This document shows positions 6,662-55,387 of a stretch of DNA of 64,000 nucleotides, piece by piece. Below the pieces are notes generated by a model. That model was not told the DNA's origin. It saw only the letters and a list, made by a program, of their open reading frames with translations, and did not search any database. The stretch is from the NCBI RefSeq assembly GCF_964355755.1, contig NC_092673.1:25487001-25551000 (forward strand). The letters run 5' to 3'. The stretch's first letter is position 1; every line of letters begins with the position of its first letter. Origin of the DNA: Antedon mediterranea (taxonomy: Eukaryota > Echinodermata > Crinoidea > Comatulida > Antedonidae). The translations under genes and the position numbers were made by a program.

Positions 6662-9600
6662 TTACCATCCACCACTGCTCGGTGCCAGGCCTTCCTCTTT
6701 TCTCCATAATGCTATTCTGTTCTGAAACCATTTCTGAGGATACAGGAGAAAATAATTTCAGAAAACGTTAAATTCGATGCATCATTAATAATCAAACAAT
6801 ACTTGTATTTATTACGGTTAATATCCGTTTGTACAACAATACGATAAATAGATAGATGTACATTTTTCCACAGAAAAAAAGTAAGATTTTCATTCTAGAA
6901 CCAAGCTCGATAACCAATATTAACATTTTTAGTTCAATTAAATGACGTCATGATCAATACAAGGTTTATCGTATTTCTTATGTTTTCAGTATATATTTAT
7001 GTATCGTCGATTGTTAACGTCCGTAGTATGTGCCTTTTCGATCTACAGTATATAGGCCCATACATTCACATATGTTTTCACAATATCACAGTATATTATT
7101 ATTGATTAATTACATCTCGTAATGTTTTAATAAATGTCATTTGTTCTATAATTTACAAACACTTAATTTCATTATTCGACATGCTAATCCCTTGCGTGTT
7201 GTTCTGAATCCCACTAATGGACTAAAGATAGAATTTACGGCGACTAACAGAGCACATAATGTTATTTAATGGAGCAACAAGAAAACATTATCTGTGAATG
7301 CCTCAAGTCATGTCTAGGTTTGTGTCAGTACACTGATAAATGATGATACCGATGCTGTTAAATGGACATTCACTTTCCACTCAGAAAGGAAGACAACATT
7401 TTAAATGTATAGCATGATCAAATGGAATCATATCAAAACTGTATCAGATGATGAGTGTAATGAGTATAGGCCTTAAAATTAAAAAAAAAAAATTAATAAA
7501 TAAAGAAAAAAAAACATAGTATAGGCCCACGTGTGGGTGACTGGAATCGAAGCAGGGTAGACTATTGTGCACCTTTGACGTTCATACCTCAAGTCTGTTT
7601 TTTTTTCAATGTTTAGTATTACAGTCAATTTTGTCAATGCAGTCAAATGCATTTTGAATTTGGATTTGTTAATTACAAATCAAGGATTACCCTTTACTTT
7701 ATTAAATTTAAAAGCATCCCGAACGCCATCACAATTAATTCATCATTGAGCATCTGTATACAACCTGTAGGCCTAGTACGACCGTTGTTTCTAATTAATT
7801 ATTATGAACGTAGGCCTATAATACGTCAGTATATTTTTGTAAATAAACAGTAGGCTTTCAAATTAAAATCTGCTTTACTGCTAAAACAGTGGAATGACTC
7901 AAAACGTATCGTGCTCAACGTATCCGAATTGAAATATCTGTCGTATTAACGTTTCCGACGAATGCTAGCCTTCATCAATTAATACAAGGCCTACACCATA
8001 AAGCTCTGTACACTATCAAACTAGTTTGACAAAGTCTGATGGGACATCATCATGTCCACATAATGGGCATATCACATGTGTTTGTCACATAAAGTTTGAT
8101 AGTGTAGACAGCTTTAGGTATATCGATCACACAATATTTAAACAACTTCAAGCAAACACTACATCACTATGGTCGCGCTGTTTGCATATATGTTCGACAA
8201 CCTGCAAGGGTCAAAGAAACAGGGCATTTATAATTCACAATTATTAACATTAAAACATATGTTTTTGACTTGTGTCTTGGGACCGAAACTCTGGACTTAT
8301 TTTATTATTACCCAAGGTTAACAAACTACTGGACATGCTTTGTCATTTCCGAGTATGATTCAGATCTGATCGAAACTTTTCTCATCGCTCTTCTTAAAAA
8401 TAAACACACTTAAATATGTATTCGAAATATTGTTGTATTAATGAAATAGAATAAAAAGGTCGAGGTAAAAAAAAATGTATATACCCTACTTTAAATCGTT
8501 TCCAGTCTTGGAAAAATAGTTTTTAAAGTATAATACACAATTTATTAAACAAATGTAGGCCTATTTCAGTCTCAATTCGTTCTAATTTTACATCGATTTC
8601 ATTGCGATGCTTCTACTTTGAAAACTAGTTAATTCATTAGACCTCTAAACAACAAACATCTAACAAGCCGTTTCAAAAGGTCAATAGACATTTTACAGAT
8701 CTATTTTAAAATATTAGAGATATGACAGTAAATTATGGGAAGAGGTTAGTTAATTATGAAATGACCTATAATAACTCTATTAATCAATAACAATCATGCT
8801 AAAAACAGACTGCTAACAGTAAATAATATATTGAAAGGAAAGTATATTGAGTAAGGTTTATATGGACTACTATAACAAAAAGTCGGTTTCGAAAAGACGC
8901 CCATTGTCTTATTTCAAAGAGTTTCAATGGAGGAAATATCTTCTGGAAACTTAATGGACATGGGCTCTTTACGTAGACGTAATTTGTGTGTGTAAATTTC
9001 ATGGACGTCTTCACGAGGACGCCATCTCTTGTAAACGCAAAGCATGCATCATCTGCAGAGTAAGATTATAATAGATAGACGTCTTTTCGAAGACCTAAAT
9101 GACTATCTATATACTATATATTATATCTAAAGGACTTCTTTACGAAGACGTCATCTTGAATGAAGACCACATTGACGTCTTTACGAAGACGTCGTCATCT
9201 TGAATGAAGACCATTGACGTCTTTACGAAGACGTCATCTTGATTGAAGACTATTGACGTCTTTACGAAGACGTCATCTTAAATGAAGACTTTGGACGTCC
9301 ATACTTTACTATAAATTACTTTCTGTAAAGACTTCATCTCAGATAAACGTACGAACTTCTTTTTCGAGTAAAGGATTTCTTCTCTCAAGAAAGGTCATTT
9401 CACTTTATTTCAATCACTATTGCATTATCTACAGGCGATTGAAAACATAATTGTAAATCTGATACGAGTATAAGTTGATTTAAACATTGCATTAATATTA
9501 CAGCGCATTTGAAACATCCTGGCTGCTTTTTCATAATCATGATAGAGTTAATTTACCTCCCTGTTCACGTTTAAGTCCACAGTCGCAGTGGGATGTTTTC

Positions 9601-10547
9601 TACAGCTGGTAATTTTATCATCTAGGGCAGCATAGCCCTCTGATCAGCCATTAACAGTAATTATAATACGGTTTATAATGCATGTACATTGCATTAGAAG
9701 CATCTACTATAATGAGATTATGATCTATTATTGATGCTAATTTTAATATTTATTGTTGTGTGGTGGACTTGACAAGATTGGATTTAGATGTGCGGTATAT
9801 GAATTCAATAGTGCTTAATATATTATATTCTTCAAGGATTAAGCCAAACGCACTTATATGAATTATACAAATAGTGAAGTTTAAAACCAAATAACTGAAG
9901 TTGTTTACTATAAGTCATAAATACCATAAACAGCAAGGTTTACATTATACAGTATTTGCCTTTTCTGTTGGCCTATGTAGATACACAATAGTATATAGGC
10001 CTACTGTGTATGATATAGCCTAATTTACCACCATCACAGGGTCTAATTCGTACTATTAGGCTACTACGATAGTTTTCAAAACCTAACTTAAGGTCTAATC
10101 ATTTATATTATGAAACTATATTTATAAACGATGAGTATTAAATAAATGTGAATTAAACTGAATTATAAAATACATATTACTACAGTAATACATTACAAAT
10201 CGCCAGCACTTTTCTATGGTACTCAATATAGTAGGCATATACCATGTATTATTATCGGATTCTACTACAAGTTCTTCTGTTACTAATTGATTAATTACTG
10301 ACATGGTAAAACGTCCATACGGTATCGGATGTAATAAGAAATAGTACACGATACTCACCTCTGTATCTTTTACACTTAAACCAGCTTCTGCCGCTATAAT
10401 CTCCAACATTATATCATCAACGTTCTTACTTTGCTTAAAGTTGGACTCCAATATCTTTTCTTGAGTTGGACTAAGTTTAACTTTATCCTTGTCTGACGTT
10501 GCCAACTTGGCCTCTACGACCCTGGTAGGTGTTGGTAATGCGTCCAT
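6662..10547 (-). CDS. HOPX-like: HOPX-like homeodomain-only protein
   Basis: Two exons: 10547-10359 (63 codons, donor GTGAGT) and 6733-6662 (23 codons plus stop, acceptor CTCCTGTATCCTCAG), joined in phase 0; 86 residues, close to vertebrate HOPX (73). The product is nearly all homeodomain: helix 1 SPTQEKILESNF, then LEIIAAEAGLSVKDTE, then KWFQNRIALWRK across the intron. IIAAEAGLS, the KWF junction and the short tail (KEEGLAP...) closely match HOPX. Vertebrate HOPX has WFKQR and does not bind DNA; this protein has WFQNR, keeping Gln50 and Asn51. It also lacks the extra residue found between helices 1 and 2 in vertebrate HOPX. Likely nuclear; DNA binding is inferred. The ATG at 10547 is the only one in this open frame; upstream the frame stays open to a stop near 10610 without another ATG. 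The intron holds a MITE-A copy and a GACGTC-rich array. Confidence 0.82.
7998..8118. repeat. MITE-A copy 3
   Basis: The cleanest short copy: TAAAGCTCTGTACACTATCA at the left, TGATAGTGTAGACAGCTTTA at the right, 120 bp apart, in the HOPX-like intron. Both ends start with TA, as expected for a TA target duplication. Confidence 0.85.
8886..9360. repeat. Tandem array of GACGTC hairpins
   Basis: About 40-43 bp units, best preserved at 9125-9300. Each unit contains GACGTCTTTACGAAGACGTC, an 8-bp stem with a 4-base loop, and also spacer ATCTTGAATGAAGACCATT. More degraded units extend left to about 8890 and right to about 9360. The array lies inside the HOPX-like intron, 1-1.5 kb from exon 1. Confidence 0.85.
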
Positions 10548-11791
10548 ATCGAATAGGTCTAACACACGTGACAGAAAAGGAAAGAGAGTTTCCGAAGACT
10601 TTAAACTTCAAATTCAGTAGGCCTATACTAATAACGCTGCTCTTGACGTCTCTGTGTTTTTAGCGTGTGACAGTATTGATGCGTATAACCACGATTGTTG
10701 CCCTTCAACAACGTCAATACATGTTATAATCGATTTCAACTAAAAACAACAATGCAGTGTCGTGTAGTAATAATTACGTAGCGATAAACTCCCACTATAT
10801 AACCGATGTATTGTATATCACTGAATCAAATCGACCAATACGACACGCTTCATCGAACGACTATATCTCGATATAACTCACCAGTCATAATTATATTATT
10901 CGATAAGGGGAGGAGTTTACATATCGCATGCATACGTTAATGCACCACAAGGCCGGATGATGAGTTACCGTTTATAACACTGGGTCCTTGAAAATTAAAG
11001 CGAGAGGGGTAAATTCAACCAGGGTATATCATTCTGGTATGATAACATGCATTGGAATATTTCTAACTCAGAGAACTTGGTTTGTTGATACTGGACCTGT
11101 ATATCTGATATAGGTCGTACCTTAGTCACGTTAGGAACATAGAAACCTGCTTTTAGTATGCCTATACCAATATTGACCATTTATGATAAGTGCCATTGTT
11201 CAATTTATGTAGGCAGTGTATATTTTAAGATAAACGGGATACATGTATTTTGTTGTGTGCTGGCCAATTGGGACATCAAATGCCGTACGCGCAGCGCAAG
11301 TGAGTGTTTCGTTATATCATATATCCAAGTGGGAACCAAGTCTTAGATAATGAGACCATGAATAAATTAATTTCAATTTAAATAATTTAATTGTATGCCG
11401 CTGCAACGCGTTTGATGAGTAGAATATTAAAATAATAATGTCTTTCAATTAAAAACAATAATATGACCTAATTAATACATTTTAAATATAGATGGTATGG
11501 TACAATTCTAGTTGCTCAAAATGAGATGTTTACCGACATTTCCTTGTTTTTTTACGAAGACAAATAAAGTTTCTTGTATCTTTTATCTATTGCAAGAAGA
11601 CATTGCATACAAATTTAAAATTAGCCATCAAAATGGTTAATTATTAATATATTTAATTCGTTCTATTGCACAGTGTTTAAACATTATTACAGTACTATAC
11701 TTAAAATTTTTCACGTCTTCATACCCATCTTAATTTCATAAAATTGACATCTAAAACTATTGGTTACGTTATAACCAGACATACTTGAACT

Positions 11792-14334: not shown

Positions 14335-31360
<17,026 letters not shown>

Positions 31361-44097: not shown

Positions 44098-47000
44098 ATG
44101 TCTGGTGATAATGCTGCAGTAGTTGTTATCGACAATGGTTCTATTATGTGTAAAGCTGGTTTTGCTGGAGAGGATGCACCTCGGGTCATGTTTCCAGCAA
44201 TCGTTGGTAGGCCTAAGCATCAGGTACGAACCGTCTATGAGTATGTACTCTGCCGTAGAGAACCGGTTTGAAGCCAACCAAGTTAAAGTATCTAGCCTAT
44301 CCTACATTGCGTATCTAATGAATGAGAGAGTAAAGCTAAACAGAATATATGGATTAATAATGTTTTAATTGAAATTTTAGAAAGACAGAAATGTGCTTTT
44401 AGTGCTATGCATATTTTATCTTGTGTTTTTTTTTGTAATGTCAAAGATAAATCAATCGGTAATATAATAGTCATACATACCTCTAACTAAGGTAATGAAT
44501 TATTGATGATTTATGCCTTAACCTCATAGGAAAAAAATAATGCTTCCCTACCTAGTGGCTATTAATCTTTCAAAATATTATTTTTTGTTTACCAAAAGTT
44601 ACTGGAGCAGAAAGAATATTATGTTGGGGATGAAGCCTATTCACAGTTAGACAATCTTGATATTGAATATCCCATAGAGCGTGGTGTTATAACTAACTGG
44701 GATGCAATGGAAAAAATATGGCATCATTGTTTTTACAATGAACTCAAAATCAAGCCAGAGGAACATTTAGTTCTTGTATTGGAACCAGTTATGAACCCAA
44801 CCTCAAACAGAGAGGGGATTATGAAGGTAACTATATAAATGCCAACTTTCCACTAACATATTTTCAATGGTTAGTATTAGAATTATTATTATTAATGAGT
44901 TATGGTATTACTTTCAGAGGAACAAGATGAAATGATTAGAAATGTCACCATATGACCTATTTATTATAACAAACAGTTATTCTTAACTTGAAAAAATGAC
45001 ATTTCTGGAGAATTTGTGAAAGCATATCCAAACAAGAGAGGGTGTTATACAATACAAATTATAAAAGACATCAAACAGTAGGGTGCTATTTAAACAATCT
45101 TGGGTATCTTAAACTTCTCCAATAAACAATGAGCTACTTGTCGTATTCAATTTAGACTTTCACCGTTGAGTACAGTTTTTTTTTTTTTTTTTAGTACTTC
45201 TACGGAGTATTTTGAGCGTTGAGATTGTTCTTAACGAAAAAGCTTTCATTGTCAACGTTTTCTATTCGAATGACTTTCTGTTGAGCACAAATTTACAATT
45301 CGAATACAAAAAGTACTCAACGAATCTTTACGTTGACAACGAAAGTTCCCAATCGAATACGACAATTGATATGATTGAGATGTTTTTTTTCCAAGCAGAA
45401 GAAATTGCACATTAATGGCATGATGAAGGAAGTGGACTCAACATATTAATTAGGTCATATTTCAGTAAACCAGTAAAACAAATTCTTGAAATTTATTTTT
45501 TCCACGGTTTTATCCATTATGTTATTAAAATGATTTCTTCTGTGCAGCCTAATGGTCCATCATCAAAAGACACTTAGTGACTGTGACAGTCACTATCAAT
45601 ATTACAGTATTATTATTTTATAGGTGTTATTTGAGAAATTTAATGTACCTGCAATGTATCTGAGTATCCAAGGTCAAATGTCAATTTATGCGTCCGGTAG
45701 AGGTAGTGCAATAAGTGTGGATATAGGTGATGGGGTGATTCACATCGTACCGATCTATGAGGGATTTGCCATTATGAAAGCTATTCAAAGAATTGAATTT
45801 GGAGGGTGTGACCTAACGCAGTATATGGCTCAGTTGCTTGCTGAAAGAGGATATACATTCATGAATACAGGTTTGTATCAGTCATTTTTGTAATGTTCAA
45901 GTAACATACCATTTGAATGGTCAAGAAACAAGGCCATGTACATGGCTGCAGTCGCATGCTCAAGTTAGTGTTTACCGACCGACCAACCGATCAAAATTGC
46001 TGAGCATGTTTATAAAATGTTGAAAACATTTATATTTTTTAAATTTACACGTGCAAAGCCTGTCACTTTTGACGTTCTCGTATAACGTAATTTCGAGTTG
46101 GAAAGTGAATCAAATATGATGACATTATTAAAGAAAGGTTGTAAAACAGAAATCGGGCAAAAAGAGTGCGTATTAATGTTTAACGTGCGCACTCATTGCA
46201 ATTTTTTAAACGCTTAAAATTGCCTGAAACGTACTCTCATTTCATCGAAAATAAATTTGAAAATTTTGAAAATTTTAAGTGCGCGAACGCATGTGTTATA
46301 TGCGCTACGCACGTAATTGTATTGCCGTATTACCAACCAACATAGTAAGCTGTAGAGTCGCGTTGTACGCGACTAAAAACAAGCCATTTGAATGGTCAAG
46401 AAAAATAGGCCATTCGAATGGTCAAGAAAAAACAGGCCATTTAAATGGTCAAGAAAAAAACAGGCCATTTGAATGGTCAAGAAAAAACAAGCCATTTGAA
46501 TGGTCAAGAAAAAAACAGGCCATTTGAATGGTCAAGAAAAAAAAGGCCATTTAAATGGTCAAGGAAAAAACAAGCCATTTGAATGGTCAAGGAAAAAACA
46601 GGCCATTTAAATGGTCAAAAATCAACTGGCCATTTGGATGGTCAAGAAAAAAGTCATTTAAATGGTCAAGTAAAAAACATGCCATTTGAATGGTCAAGGA
46701 AAAAACAGGCCATTTAAATGGTCAAAAAACAACTGGCCATTTGGATGGTCAAGAAAAAAGTCATTTAAATGGTCAAGTAAAAAACATGCCATTTGAATGG
46801 TCAAGGGAAAAAAAACGGGCCAGTTGAATGGTCAAGGAAAAAACAGGCCATTTGAATGAAAAAATGAAAATGAAAAAACGGTGCCGGCCATAATCAAGTA
46901 GTTTCTATCAGTGGTTTTTTAATTTTGCAATTTGTGCGTTTGACATAATCAGACGATTATGTTGTTTCAAAGAACGGAGTGAGAATATTCTCAATAATCA

Positions 47001-47635
47001 TTGTTAACAGCAGGTAGCCTTGATTAACAAGTCAATATGTAAAAATATTCATTAATATTGAATTTAACAGCTTGTCCATTTAGATTTAATTAAACAAAAA
47101 TTATGTGGTTTTTTTAGCCGAGATGGAAAGCGTAAGAAAATTAAAGGACAGCCTCTGCTACGTCGCTGAAGATTTTCAACAAGAGTTAGCATCAGCATCG
47201 TCAAATCCATCACTAGCAAAGAGTTACCAACTTGCAGATGGTCGCGAGATAACCCTTGGAGAAGAAAGATTCCGATGTCCGGAAGTTCTTTTTGATCCGT
47301 CTTTGATGGAACTGGATCATTGCGGCATTCACCAGATTGTTTATAACAGTATAATGAAGTGTGATATTGATACACGTGGTGACATATACTGCAGTATTGT
47401 GATCTCTGGCGGAACTTCTCTAATACCAGGATTTGCCGAGAGGCTCCAGAAGGAAATAAAATCACTGGCTCCTAAGTCCATGAGAGTAAGGGTAGTAGCC
47501 GCACAGGAACGAAAGTTTAATGTATGGATAGGGGGATCTATTTTAGGGTCGTTGAGTACATTTCAAAAGATGTGGATTACTCGGAAAGAGTACGACGAAC
47601 TTGGCAATCGTGCTATTAAAAAATTAGTTTTATGA
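44098..47635 (+). CDS. Divergent actin-like protein
   Basis: Four exons: 44098-44223, 44599-44826, 45624-45870, 47118-47635; 372 residues (conventional actin 375-376). Nucleotide-binding loops are kept: [35 protein letters not shown] and [10 protein letters not shown], as are NERFRCPE-like [11 protein letters not shown] and [19 protein letters not shown]. So the fold and ATP site look intact. Differences from filament-forming actin: the D-loop between HQ and YVGDEA is four residues shorter (LLEQKEY), the methylated His73 position is Arg ([11 protein letters not shown]), and the C-terminus is IKKLVL instead of RKCF. It is not a recognisable ARP1-ARP11 class. Actin-derived lineage-specific or germline-type actin-like protein is the best guess; filament incorporation is doubtful. 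Intron 3 contains a 27-bp satellite interrupted by a small mobile element. Confidence 0.85.
45927..46379 (+). repeat. Rolling-end element copy 2, inserted in a satellite
   Basis: Longest copy, about 450 bp: starts ACAAGGCCATGTACATGGCT (containing the perfect palindrome GCCATGTACATGGC) and ends GAGTCGCGTTGTACGCGACTAAAAA. It is flanked on both sides by units of the 27-bp satellite (CCATTTGAATGGTCAAGAAA), showing it inserted into the array. In intron 3 of the actin-like gene. Confidence 0.78.
46380..46856. repeat. 27-bp satellite, about 18 units
   Basis: Head-to-tail variants of AGGCCATTTGAATGGTCAAG AAAAAAC. Variants alternate between CCATTTGAATGG and the perfect palindrome CCATTTAAATGG. A higher-order unit of about 107 bp is duplicated at 46570-46680 and 46680-46790. 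One more unit lies left of the inserted element at 45910-45926. Confidence 0.93.
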
Positions 47636-47895: not shown

Positions 47896-48837
47896 GCTGA
47901 GAATGTACACATAGTACAGTAATGTTGGTATTTGTCACAGCCAGACAAAAGATCAAAGGACTTGGCAAAGCGAGCTCAGTGTCCTGTTGTCTGATTGCCT
48001 TGGTTCAAGTCATTTTAATTTTCAAATTCCTAGTCTCCTAATTTTAAACAGATTATACTGAAAATAAATATTAACAATGTATTTATCTTGCCTAGATTAA
48101 GTGTAATATGTTATAGTAAATAGTGCAATTAGAATTAGTTGTTTTATACTAAGCATGGCTAATGAAATGAATGCTAATGAAATGTATTTAAAAAGGCTTC
48201 TGTTTTGTAAGTACTAAATTTTAATTTAACGAAAGCGGCAAAGAGATGCAGGAGATGGAGAAGCCTTAGGATGGGGGTCGACGGTAAGGGTGGGTGGGAG
48301 GGTTCCTACGGTAATGGTGGGTGCGAAAGAATAAATAGTACACAAACCAGATGTAGTGGGTGCCGTGTTGAAATGTAAACCATAATATGTATATATAATA
48401 ATATATTATATAAATTATATTTCATTTAACTGTAAACTGTTAAATATGTTTAAACTTGCATTTAATGTTTTTCCTCCATGGTGCTAACACTAAACCCAAT
48501 AATATTAACAATTTAATATTAGATTATTACATTTTGTGTAAATAGATTTATTTAACATAGAATTAAGGTTTATACTATTATATACTAATATACTATATAG
48601 TTGTATACCAGCCTATAATAGTCACAATGGATCGCTGTAGGTGTGGTTAACATTTGAAATAATACATTTATATACATTTTATATTTTACCAGTTTATATT
48701 TGATAAATTTTAGAGTAATTTGTATTAATGGATTATGCACTTTAGTGTTTTTAGAAAAAGAAATCACGTACTTGTTTATTAAATTGTTCAACGAAAAGAT
48801 TTTTTAGAAGTTTTTAGATTTGTTTTGTTTTGAAAAA

Positions 48838-49040
48838 AATAGGCCATTTGAATGGTGAAGAAAAAAACAGGCCATTTGAATGGTCAAGAAAAAACAGGCC
48901 ATTTAAATGGTCAAGAAAAAAGCCATTTGAATGGTCAAGAAAAAAACAGTTAATTTGAATGGTCAAGAAAAAACAGGCCATTTGAATGGTCAAGAAAAAC
49001 AAGCCATTTGAATGGTAAAATAAAAAACAAGCCATTTGAA
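48838..49040. repeat. 27-bp satellite, second block
   Basis: Eight units of the same AGGCCATTTGAATGGTCAAG repeat seen in intron 3 of the actin-like gene, in the same orientation, 1.2 kb past its stop codon. The last coding exon therefore lies between two direct satellite blocks. Confidence 0.92.
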
Positions 49041-50644
49041 TATAAAGAGGTTAACTTGAAATTTATTATCGCAATTTATTATATATAAATAAATTGAACA
49101 TAAAATATCGCATATAAAACATACAAAATATAGCACTTTAAGTAATCAAAAATCAAAAAGATGCATAAAGAACAAATACACATTATTCGCAGGGCTGTGC
49201 AGGATGAAAACATGAAAACACAATGGTTTGTAATGAATGATTTTGATTTTTTAGTTTTACATAATGGTAAACAAAATTCATTACTGTGTCTATTGTAAAA
49301 TCCCATCGTTTCGGTAATGAAATGATAAGGCCCAATTCTGTGATTTTCATTCTTAAATTTCTGAAAATATTGCCTGCACATCCAGGTTCGTCGTAGTTAA
49401 GCTACTAGTAGGCCTACTGATAAAACCAAAGCCCCTCATCCTATAATATTTAACACAATACCTCGCATGCTATACTCGTGTATCCGCTTTTTTTTAAGTC
49501 GCTGCATGGATATCAACCCTCGGGGAAAAAAAGAAGTTTTTCATACATATCACATTTTGTGAATTAGATTACCCTGTTAAACAAAATCAATACATACATT
49601 CAATACCTAGATTACAACATCACATACACCTTTACAACTAATTAAAAAACACCACCTTGAATATGTCGTAGATTTTTGTACAAAACCGTACACCTGCATC
49701 TTGCCGCCAGACGTCTCGTGAACGGATAAAGCATATTGATTAATAGTATAATTCTAACATTAGTAAAAGTAAAATACCCGTCTATCCGTTTCATGCGCCG
49801 ATTCACACGGCATTATGTTACAGTACTTATAAAAATCCAAGGCGGTCAATCGGCTACTGTACTTCATTAAAAATTGCTATTAGGGTTCAATAGGAATTTG
49901 CGTGCCATACACGAATTATCAATATTAAAAACTAATCAATGGTTGTACATTCTATGAGAGATGTTATAGGCTAAATCATTTTTGGAAAATGTGTATGAAC
50001 GAAAATTCTGCGGTAAGCCTACTCAACACTTTAGATATCAGAAGGTCTCTATGAAATTAACTACAGTAGGGCCTATTAGTTATTATATTGACAGTGGAAT
50101 GTATTTTCCAAAACCATGGCGCTTAATCCTTTTGGCTGTTTGCTTTACCGTTTTGATTTAGCTTTCATGCTTATTTTATTTGGATCTTCATTGCTATAAA
50201 GTTTTCAGTAATTTTAAATATTTAATAGTTATTTAATTTGTGCGCTTTTATTGATCCCATTAAGAACGTAGCACGTGTGCAATTATTTTTTTTTAAATAG
50301 ATTTACGAACTGTGTAATCTTGAACTCAAACAGAGAATGAATTACATTAATGTTTCTGAAAGTAGGTCAGAAAGATCCGGTCGTATGAAAGGAAGGCGAT
50401 AGTAAAATCCGTTATACATTTTGCTGTATTTCTGAAATACCACGAACAATACTTGCGACATGTATATCTACTTAATCTTAATGGTTTGTCAATGATTTAC
50501 TTGCTTATAAAAAGAAGCAGCATTATAAGAGTGCTAATTCCATTTAATAATGTGATAAATCACGACTCAACCGATACTAAGTATCATTATACGGTACTCT
50601 ACAATTCCTTCCTTTCTTAGGTCATTTTTTCGATAATAGAGAGC

Positions 50645-53967: not shown

Positions 53968-55275
53968 TTATACTTGATCAATACGCACATATTCTTTACC
54001 ATTTAATGGTTCTGTTTGTTCCTCTGTGATATCGTTTAAACACACTTGAAGTTCAGGAGATATATGGTGGTTTTTGTTAGCGTCAATCGTGGTCGAACTG
54101 CCGTTTCCATTGACTGATTTATTTGGTGAGACGAATGACATGACGTTTGTCAATGCGGTAAATTCAGAATTATCTCGGTCTCTGTAAAAAGCTTTACGAC
54201 AGAGAAGGCGCTTAAATCCACTGCGAAATTCAGTGTTTGTGGAATATATCAAAGGGTTAAGTGAACTATTGATCCAACCAAGCCAGACAACAACATAATA
54301 CGTTGTAGGTCCTACGCAATCGCTGCAAAATGGCTTTATACAATTTACAACAAAAAAGGGCAGCCAACAGCAAACGAAGGCACCCATAATTGTTCCAAGC
54401 GTTTTTGCCGCTCGACGCTCACCGCGTGCGTGTTTTTGATGACGTGACAGTTTAGTTTGAAGACGTATCTGCCTTTCCTGTTTTTGTGCTTCTAAATATA
54501 TACGTAAGTACAGACCAACCATGATAGCAGACGGAATGTAAAAGCTAATACAAGACGATATAACGGAGTAATACCTATTTAAGGCGAAATCGCATTTTGG
54601 GATATCACAATCAAGTAGTCCTAAATCTCCTGGTTCCCGGTGTATTTCAGTTAAAACGGGTACAAACGACAAAAGAGCAGAAACTACCCACGCAGTCATT
54701 ATCATTATTCGTGACTTTCTTTTTGTCATTTTACTCTGGTATTGAAACGGCATCATTATAGCCCAATATCTATCCAAACTGATAACAAACAAATTTAAAA
54801 TGGAAGCGGTTGACATCATTATATCCAGCGCCGTGTGTATATCACAAAAACGACCAAACGGCCAATATCCAGCCGTTGTATAAACAACGTTAAAACTCAT
54901 AACAAGTAAAGCGACGAGAACGTCCGAGAAGGCTAATGATACAATGAAATGATTTGTTATTCTTTTCCGTAGATGTCGCCAATTCAATACCGATGCGATG
55001 ACTAGGCAGTTTCCAAAAAACGTTGCAAGTGTTATGCACGTGAGTGCAATACCTGCCGCAACTTGCGCATTGCCCTCTGTAGGGCAAAGTGGATTTCCGG
55101 AAGAATTTGTAGATGATAAATGATCGAATCCATCGTTAATCAAAGCACTTGTTGGAACCCTTAACTCATATGTACTATTTGGTGAATTTTCATCCAACAC
55201 CGCTGTTCTATACGGCGATGTAAGTCCGATTACAGTCACGGAATATAAGTTAGGTTGAACGGCTTTTGTAGACAT
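53968..55275 (-). CDS. DRD1-like: D1-like dopamine / biogenic amine GPCR, intronless
   Basis: A single 435-codon frame encodes a full rhodopsin-class receptor. The N-terminus (about 70 residues) has NST and NSS glycosylation sites and no clear signal peptide. TM1 72-96 (GNCLV), TM2 with Asp118, TM3 with Cys144 and the amine-binding Asp151 in the D1-like string ALDIMMSTASILNLFVISLD, then DRY 168-170, TM5 with Ser240, Ser241 and Ser244 before Pro248 (catechol contacts), TM6 CWLPFF at 303-308, and TM7 NPLIY 340-344. The tail has a likely palmitoylated Cys359 and a moderately long cytoplasmic end. The AQKQ motif after TM5 and the lack of introns also fit D1-type receptors, which couple to Gs. Octopamine-beta or another amine receptor is possible; ligand is inferred. 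The ATG at 55275 opens the frame; a 5' untranslated exon may lie beyond 55320. Confidence 0.88.
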   Translation of the reverse strand: MSTKAVQPNLYSVTVIGLTSPYRTAVLDENSPNSTYELRVPTSALINDGFDHLSSTNSSGNPLCPTEGNAQVAAGIALTCITLATFFGNCLVIASVLNWRHLRKRITNHFIVSLAFSDVLVALLVMSFNVVYTTAGYWPFGRFCDIHTALDIMMSTASILNLFVISLDRYWAIMMPFQYQSKMTKRKSRIMIMTAWVVSALLSFVPVLTEIHREPGDLGLLDCDIPKCDFALNRYYSVISSCISFYIPSAIMVGLYLRIYLEAQKQERQIRLQTKLSRHQKHARGERRAAKTLGTIMGAFVCCWLPFFVVNCIKPFCSDCVGPTTYYVVVWLGWINSSLNPLIYSTNTEFRSGFKRLLCRKAFYRDRDNSEFTALTNVMSFVSPNKSVNGNGSSTTIDANKNHHISPELQVCLNDITEEQTEPLNGKEYVRIDQV

Positions 55276-55387
55276 ATTTGGTGACTTGAAGCGTTCGACC
55301 AGGACACGAGATCCTTACGTTGTGATTTTCATATCATGGCTGTAAAGATATATAAAAAAGAACATGACATTAATACAAAATATACAA

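Follow-up and report, generated by a model that had tools for sequence, protein, structure and literature searches.

HOPX is the textbook case of a homeodomain in which DNA binding has been lost, and Asn51 is the best conserved of the base contacts made by homeodomains. The vertebrate protein does not bind DNA and works through SRF and HDAC2 (PMC9179269). The human gene has its intron between homeodomain residues 46 and 47, the human protein has one extra residue between helices 1 and 2, and Holland et al. count HOPX as PRD class on grounds other than Arg53, Lys55 and a basic arm (PMC2211742). Hopx was regarded as an orphan family with no invertebrate members in 2007 (PMC2211742), and Paps et al. 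described chordate and mollusc members in 2015 (PMC5322547); a HOPX gene was therefore to be expected in the genome studied here. For the lophotrochozoan orphan homeobox, Lopx, its authors report a separation from every PRD-class family but the divergent Hopx (PMC6118893). A literature search of partial coverage, which is hence no proof of absence, found no paper on HOPX in echinoderms or hemichordates and none discussing Asn51 of an invertebrate HOPX.

Here we describe a HOPX candidate from a window of 64,000 nucleotides (the whole stretch of DNA analyzed) of an invertebrate genome and compare it with these systems. Judged by its Hox genes, the genome is probably that of an ambulacrarian, the group that includes sea urchins, and perhaps of a feather star. 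The candidate is a new and informative member of an already known family. The mollusc and chordate Hopx proteins belong to the same named family, a likeness drawn by family name only. Lopx, set beside the candidate by description only, is confined to lophotrochozoans and has its own C-terminal motif, whereas the predicted tail of the candidate runs just a few residues past EEGL.

Results

Gene structure

The candidate is composed of two coding exons on the minus strand, with a predicted product of 86 amino acids (Table 1). The donor (GAG/GTGAGT) and acceptor (TCCTCAG/AAA) join the exons into a single reading frame, MDALPTPTRVVEAKLATSDKDKVKLSPTQEKILESNFKQSKNVDDIMLEIIAAEAGLSVKDTEKWFQNRIALWRKEEGLAPSSGGW, that ends at a stop codon. 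An in-frame stop lies at about 10608, 20 codons 5' of the ATG at 10547, which is the first Met after it, so that, barring an upstream exon, the predicted protein contains little beyond the homeodomain. The joined protein scored 36.4 bits with the Pfam Homeodomain model, above its cut-off of 22.9. The exon 2 peptide scored 63 against the C-terminal 17 residues of mouse HOPX, while the next-best place in the window reached 34 and simulated 64-kb windows (n = 15) never gave more than 26, which argues that the splice is not due to chance. The intron point matches that of human HOPX and of most spliced PRD-class homeoboxes of the same genome; in these the donor is positioned 138 nt past the start of homeodomain residue 1, in the same phase. 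The two-exon HOPX-family gene predicted at 10547-6662, known here from sequence alone, is thus confirmed as genuine. The exon coordinates and the 10359/6733 splice given in the preliminary description proved to be correct (GT-AG, phase 0, frame open throughout), as did its account of an almost homeodomain-only protein, the 86 residues being counted from the first in-frame Met.

Table 1 Coordinates of the HOPX candidate gene and associated motifs within the window
Feature	Position	Strand	Description
Exon 1, coding part	10359..10547	-	63 aa: N-terminal residues and homeodomain to position 46; similar to the N-terminal portion of mouse HOPX; donor GTGAGT at end
Intron	6734..10358	-	3625 bp, GT-AG, phase 0, between homeodomain residues 46 and 47
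Exon 2, coding part	6662..6733	-	KWFQNRIALWRKEEGLAPSSGGW and TAA stop; recognition helix with Gln50, Asn51, Arg52, Ile53 and Leu55
Probable start codon context GATATGG	10544..10550	-	G at -3 and G at +4; further upstream exon possible
Possible polyadenylation signal ATTAAA	6453..6458	-	about 200 bp past the stop; motif only
Intronic 39/83-bp tandem repeat (GACGTCTTTACGAAGACGTC...)	9133..9299	.	inside the HOPX intron; noncoding for the HOPX gene

The tandem repeat within the intron is made of 39-bp units that are themselves built of GACGTC...GACGTC inverted units.

Placement in the HOPX family

A search of the PDB with the candidate was led by two mouse HOPX chains (E = 2.9e-11), followed by PAX6 (E = 1.4e-4). 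For comparison within the genome we used 75 other homeodomains, with split ones joined at their splice sites. With mouse HOPX as the query, the candidate scored 46.4 bits and the runner-up 27.8; it still ranked first when residues 47-53 were masked (31.4 against 21.2 bits), a comparison in which shuffled candidates (n = 200) reached at most 11 bits. In a maximum-likelihood tree with the 75 homeodomains, the candidate paired with mouse HOPX with support of 97/96, and of 99/95 after columns 50-51 and the longest rows were removed; the tree is based on 57 columns and holds only two HOPX-family members, the candidate and the mouse protein, both on long branches. The genome search returned no second HOPX copy, leaving the candidate as single copy. 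The best PDB match, the reciprocal best match and the tree pairing all bear out the HOPX identity first proposed for this gene, and the phylogeny that had been named as its check places it with mouse HOPX. These comparisons support the candidate as the single-copy HOPX orthologue of this invertebrate genome.

Residues shared by the candidate and mouse HOPX that are rare in the comparison set include Ala38 and Lys47 (each 0/75), Thr45 and Asn19 (each 1/75), Glu37 (3/75), Ile15 (4/75) and Leu31 (5/75). The mouse protein (1uhs, 2hi3) is likewise near homeodomain-only (73 amino acids) and shares with the candidate the 46/47 intron, the IAAEAGL motif, T45 and K47, a hydrophobic residue at 53, a non-basic residue at 55 and the W-R-x-x-EGL end, with 24 of 50 aligned homeodomain residues identical. 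The candidate differs from it in having Gln50/Asn51 rather than Lys50/Gln51, no insertion between helices 1 and 2, a charge of -1 rather than -4, a longer N-terminus and a different C-terminal tail (APSSGGW). The PRD-class proteins PAX6, aristaless and ALX4 resemble the candidate in the phase 0 intron at 46/47, Gln50 or a similar residue, and Asn51, but they have a basic arm, Arg53, Lys55 and Tyr25, and score about 20 bits below HOPX with the candidate.

One other homeodomain, L034, apparently of the LIM class, was considered as a better match to mouse HOPX and rejected. An exon-by-exon genome search placed it above exon 1 of the candidate because the homeodomain is split between exons; mouse HOPX does not separate exon 1 by itself from L034 (17.7 against 17.6 bits), and the order was reversed with the spliced protein. 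SRP72, PAICS and EXOC1 are presumably the neighbors of HOPX at human 4q12; SRP72 is found on the contig of the candidate (C4), 5 Mb away, and PAICS and EXOC1 are on C5, a split that speaks against the HOPX placement but is not decisive.

Residues 50-52 and the spacing of helices 1 and 2

The recognition helix reads W48 F49 Q50 N51 R52 in the candidate, where mouse HOPX has WFKQR(L), and the count from Leu16/Phe20 to Trp48 gives standard spacing of helices 1 and 2, lacking the one-residue insertion of vertebrates. Both the Gln50/Asn51/Arg52 retention and the standard length had been noted in the preliminary description, and both are borne out. Asn51 is present in 74 of the 75 other homeodomains of the genome, which serve as an outgroup and therefore indicate that Asn51 is ancestral. 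On this comparison, Asn51 together with standard spacing of helices 1 and 2 looks ancestral, and both vertebrate states look derived. We read the insertion and the replacement of Asn51 as traits of the vertebrate lineage and not as defining the HOPX family.

The sole homeodomain of the 75 without Asn51 is L098 (G000:C9:3625687-3629700), a PRD-like split homeodomain, WFQHRRRRERTEV, with His at position 51; its phase 0 intron is at 46/47 as usual, and its acceptor is good.

Other DNA-contact positions and charge

Contact roles beyond positions 50-52 follow those of homeodomains in general. The candidate has Ile at position 53 (Arg in 74 of the 75 other homeodomains), Leu at 55 (Lys or Arg in 73), Asn at 25 (Tyr in 65), Leu at 31 (Arg in 56) and Lys at 5 (Arg in 72), together with the Lys47 found in none of them and the acidic residues Asp44 and Glu46. 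Its N-terminal arm reads D2-K3-D4-K5, and the basic arm, Arg53 and Lys55 of the PRD type are not seen. Except for 48, 50-52, 54 and 57, the DNA-facing positions of the candidate are already HOPX-like or worse. Across positions 31, 44, 46, 53, 55, 57 and 58 the candidate and mouse HOPX each have 2 basic residues, compared with a minimum of 3 and a median of 6 in the 75 other homeodomains. The net charge of homeodomain residues 9-57 is -1 in the candidate and -4 in mouse HOPX, while the comparison set spans -1 to +12 with a median of +5; two ordinary homeodomains, L034 and L079, are also at -1, so that charge alone proves nothing.

Discussion

The explanation that we favor, with moderate confidence, is that the candidate is a HOPX orthologue from a family that lost its DNA contacts stepwise, and that it would now function mainly as a homeodomain-fold adaptor. 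HOPX would have been derived from a paired-type homeodomain. On a stem shared with vertebrates, Arg53, Lys55 and Tyr25 would then have been lost as the protein became neutral to acidic; later, and on the vertebrate side only, Gln50-Asn51 would have been replaced by Lys-Gln and one residue gained between helices 1 and 2. I53, L55, N25, L31, K5, K47 and the charge of -1 suggest that most backbone contacts had already gone from HOPX by the time it lost Asn51. The equal count of 2 basic residues at seven positions in the candidate and the mouse protein suggests that the changes at 25, 31, 45, 47, 53 and 55 probably came first. These changes would thus probably lie on the common HOPX stem, with those at 50-51 and the insertion arising later, toward vertebrates. 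By analogy with vertebrate HOPX and its partners SRF and HDAC2, the candidate most likely acts mainly as a small homeodomain-fold adaptor for other transcriptional regulators, although Asn51 may still allow DNA contact that is weak or depends on a partner. Against the adaptor reading, it would be strange for Asn51, Gln50, Arg52, Trp48 and Arg57 all to have survived by chance once DNA contact had been given up.

A more specific and more tentative proposal, which we hold at somewhat less than even confidence, is that the phosphate-backbone grip (Arg53, Lys55, Tyr25 and the basic arm) was lost before the base-reading Asn51, so that the candidate would be an intermediate that is already a protein-binding module yet retains Asn51. 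If this is true, partner-assisted DNA contact is perhaps still present in living invertebrates. With Asn51 and Gln50 kept, and with Arg53, Lys55 and the vertebrate insertion absent, the candidate orders the steps of the HOPX loss and provides a natural test protein for how HOPX lost DNA binding.

The principal alternative is a true DNA-binding HOPX that recognizes specific DNA through Gln50 and Asn51, a function then lost in vertebrate HOPX. We consider it unlikely: Gln50, Asn51, Arg52, Trp48, Phe49 and Arg57 are retained in a homeodomain of standard length, and Asn51 is near-universal (74/75) among the homeodomains of the same genome, but Asn51 by itself is no proof of a DNA binder, and Ile53, Leu55, Asn25, Leu31, Lys5, Lys47, the acidic Asp44 and Glu46 and the net charge of -1 all count against it. 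The preliminary description, whose look at the contact positions stopped at residues 50-52, had read the protein as fitting an ancestral DNA-binding form; the ancestral part holds, in Gln50/Asn51/Arg52, the missing insertion and the polarity of the changes, while the DNA-binding part is opposed by I53, L55, N25, L31, K47, E46, D44, K5 and the charge of -1. Judged from these residues, the protein more likely binds DNA by itself weakly or not at all than acts as a normal DNA-binding factor.

That the candidate is instead a divergent paired-class or LIM-like homeodomain, resembling HOPX by convergence or long-branch attraction, is very improbable. The alignment is short, the branches are long, exon 1 taken singly is ambiguous with L034, and HOPX is known to destabilize homeodomain trees (PMC2211742); against this, the spliced protein is the reciprocal best match by about 20 bits and ranks first even with the recognition helix masked, the tree support stands when long rows and columns 50-51 are removed, and mouse HOPX has the same rare residues, EGL end and minimal length. 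A pseudogene, or a chance join of an open reading frame with an unrelated exon, is the least probable of all: the exon 1 frame does continue into the intron, but the spliced frame is open, the splice sites are consensus, the intron has the position and phase of the family, and exon 2 matches far beyond chance.

Other features of the window and genome

An intronless open reading frame of 448 codons elsewhere in the window (53971-55314, minus strand) encodes a class A amine GPCR whose nearest PDB matches are D1-type dopamine receptors (E = 1e-83). The window also contains ankyrin-repeat protein exons (16101-24285, minus strand) and exons of an actin-family protein (44566-47632, plus strand), the last of which matches Pfam Actin with E = 1e-57. 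A 28-bp repeat array lies between the actin-family exons (46375-46858) and the same repeat recurs at 48834-49041; at 29546-30223 a 66-bp tandem array of near-identical copies has open frames on both strands.

Homeoboxes were found on eleven contigs of 22-41 Mb, which make up nearly all of the 354 Mb. A search of the assembly for mitochondrial COX1 found no copy. A single ordered Hox cluster spans about 410 kb (G000:C2:7793581-8206132), with one posterior gene inverted. We take the homeobox adjoining its start to be Evx-like and the cluster to open with several posterior, Hox11/13-like genes and to end at Hox1, with a Hox4-like gene and central genes present; the posterior members presumably resemble the ambulacrarian Hox11/13 group.
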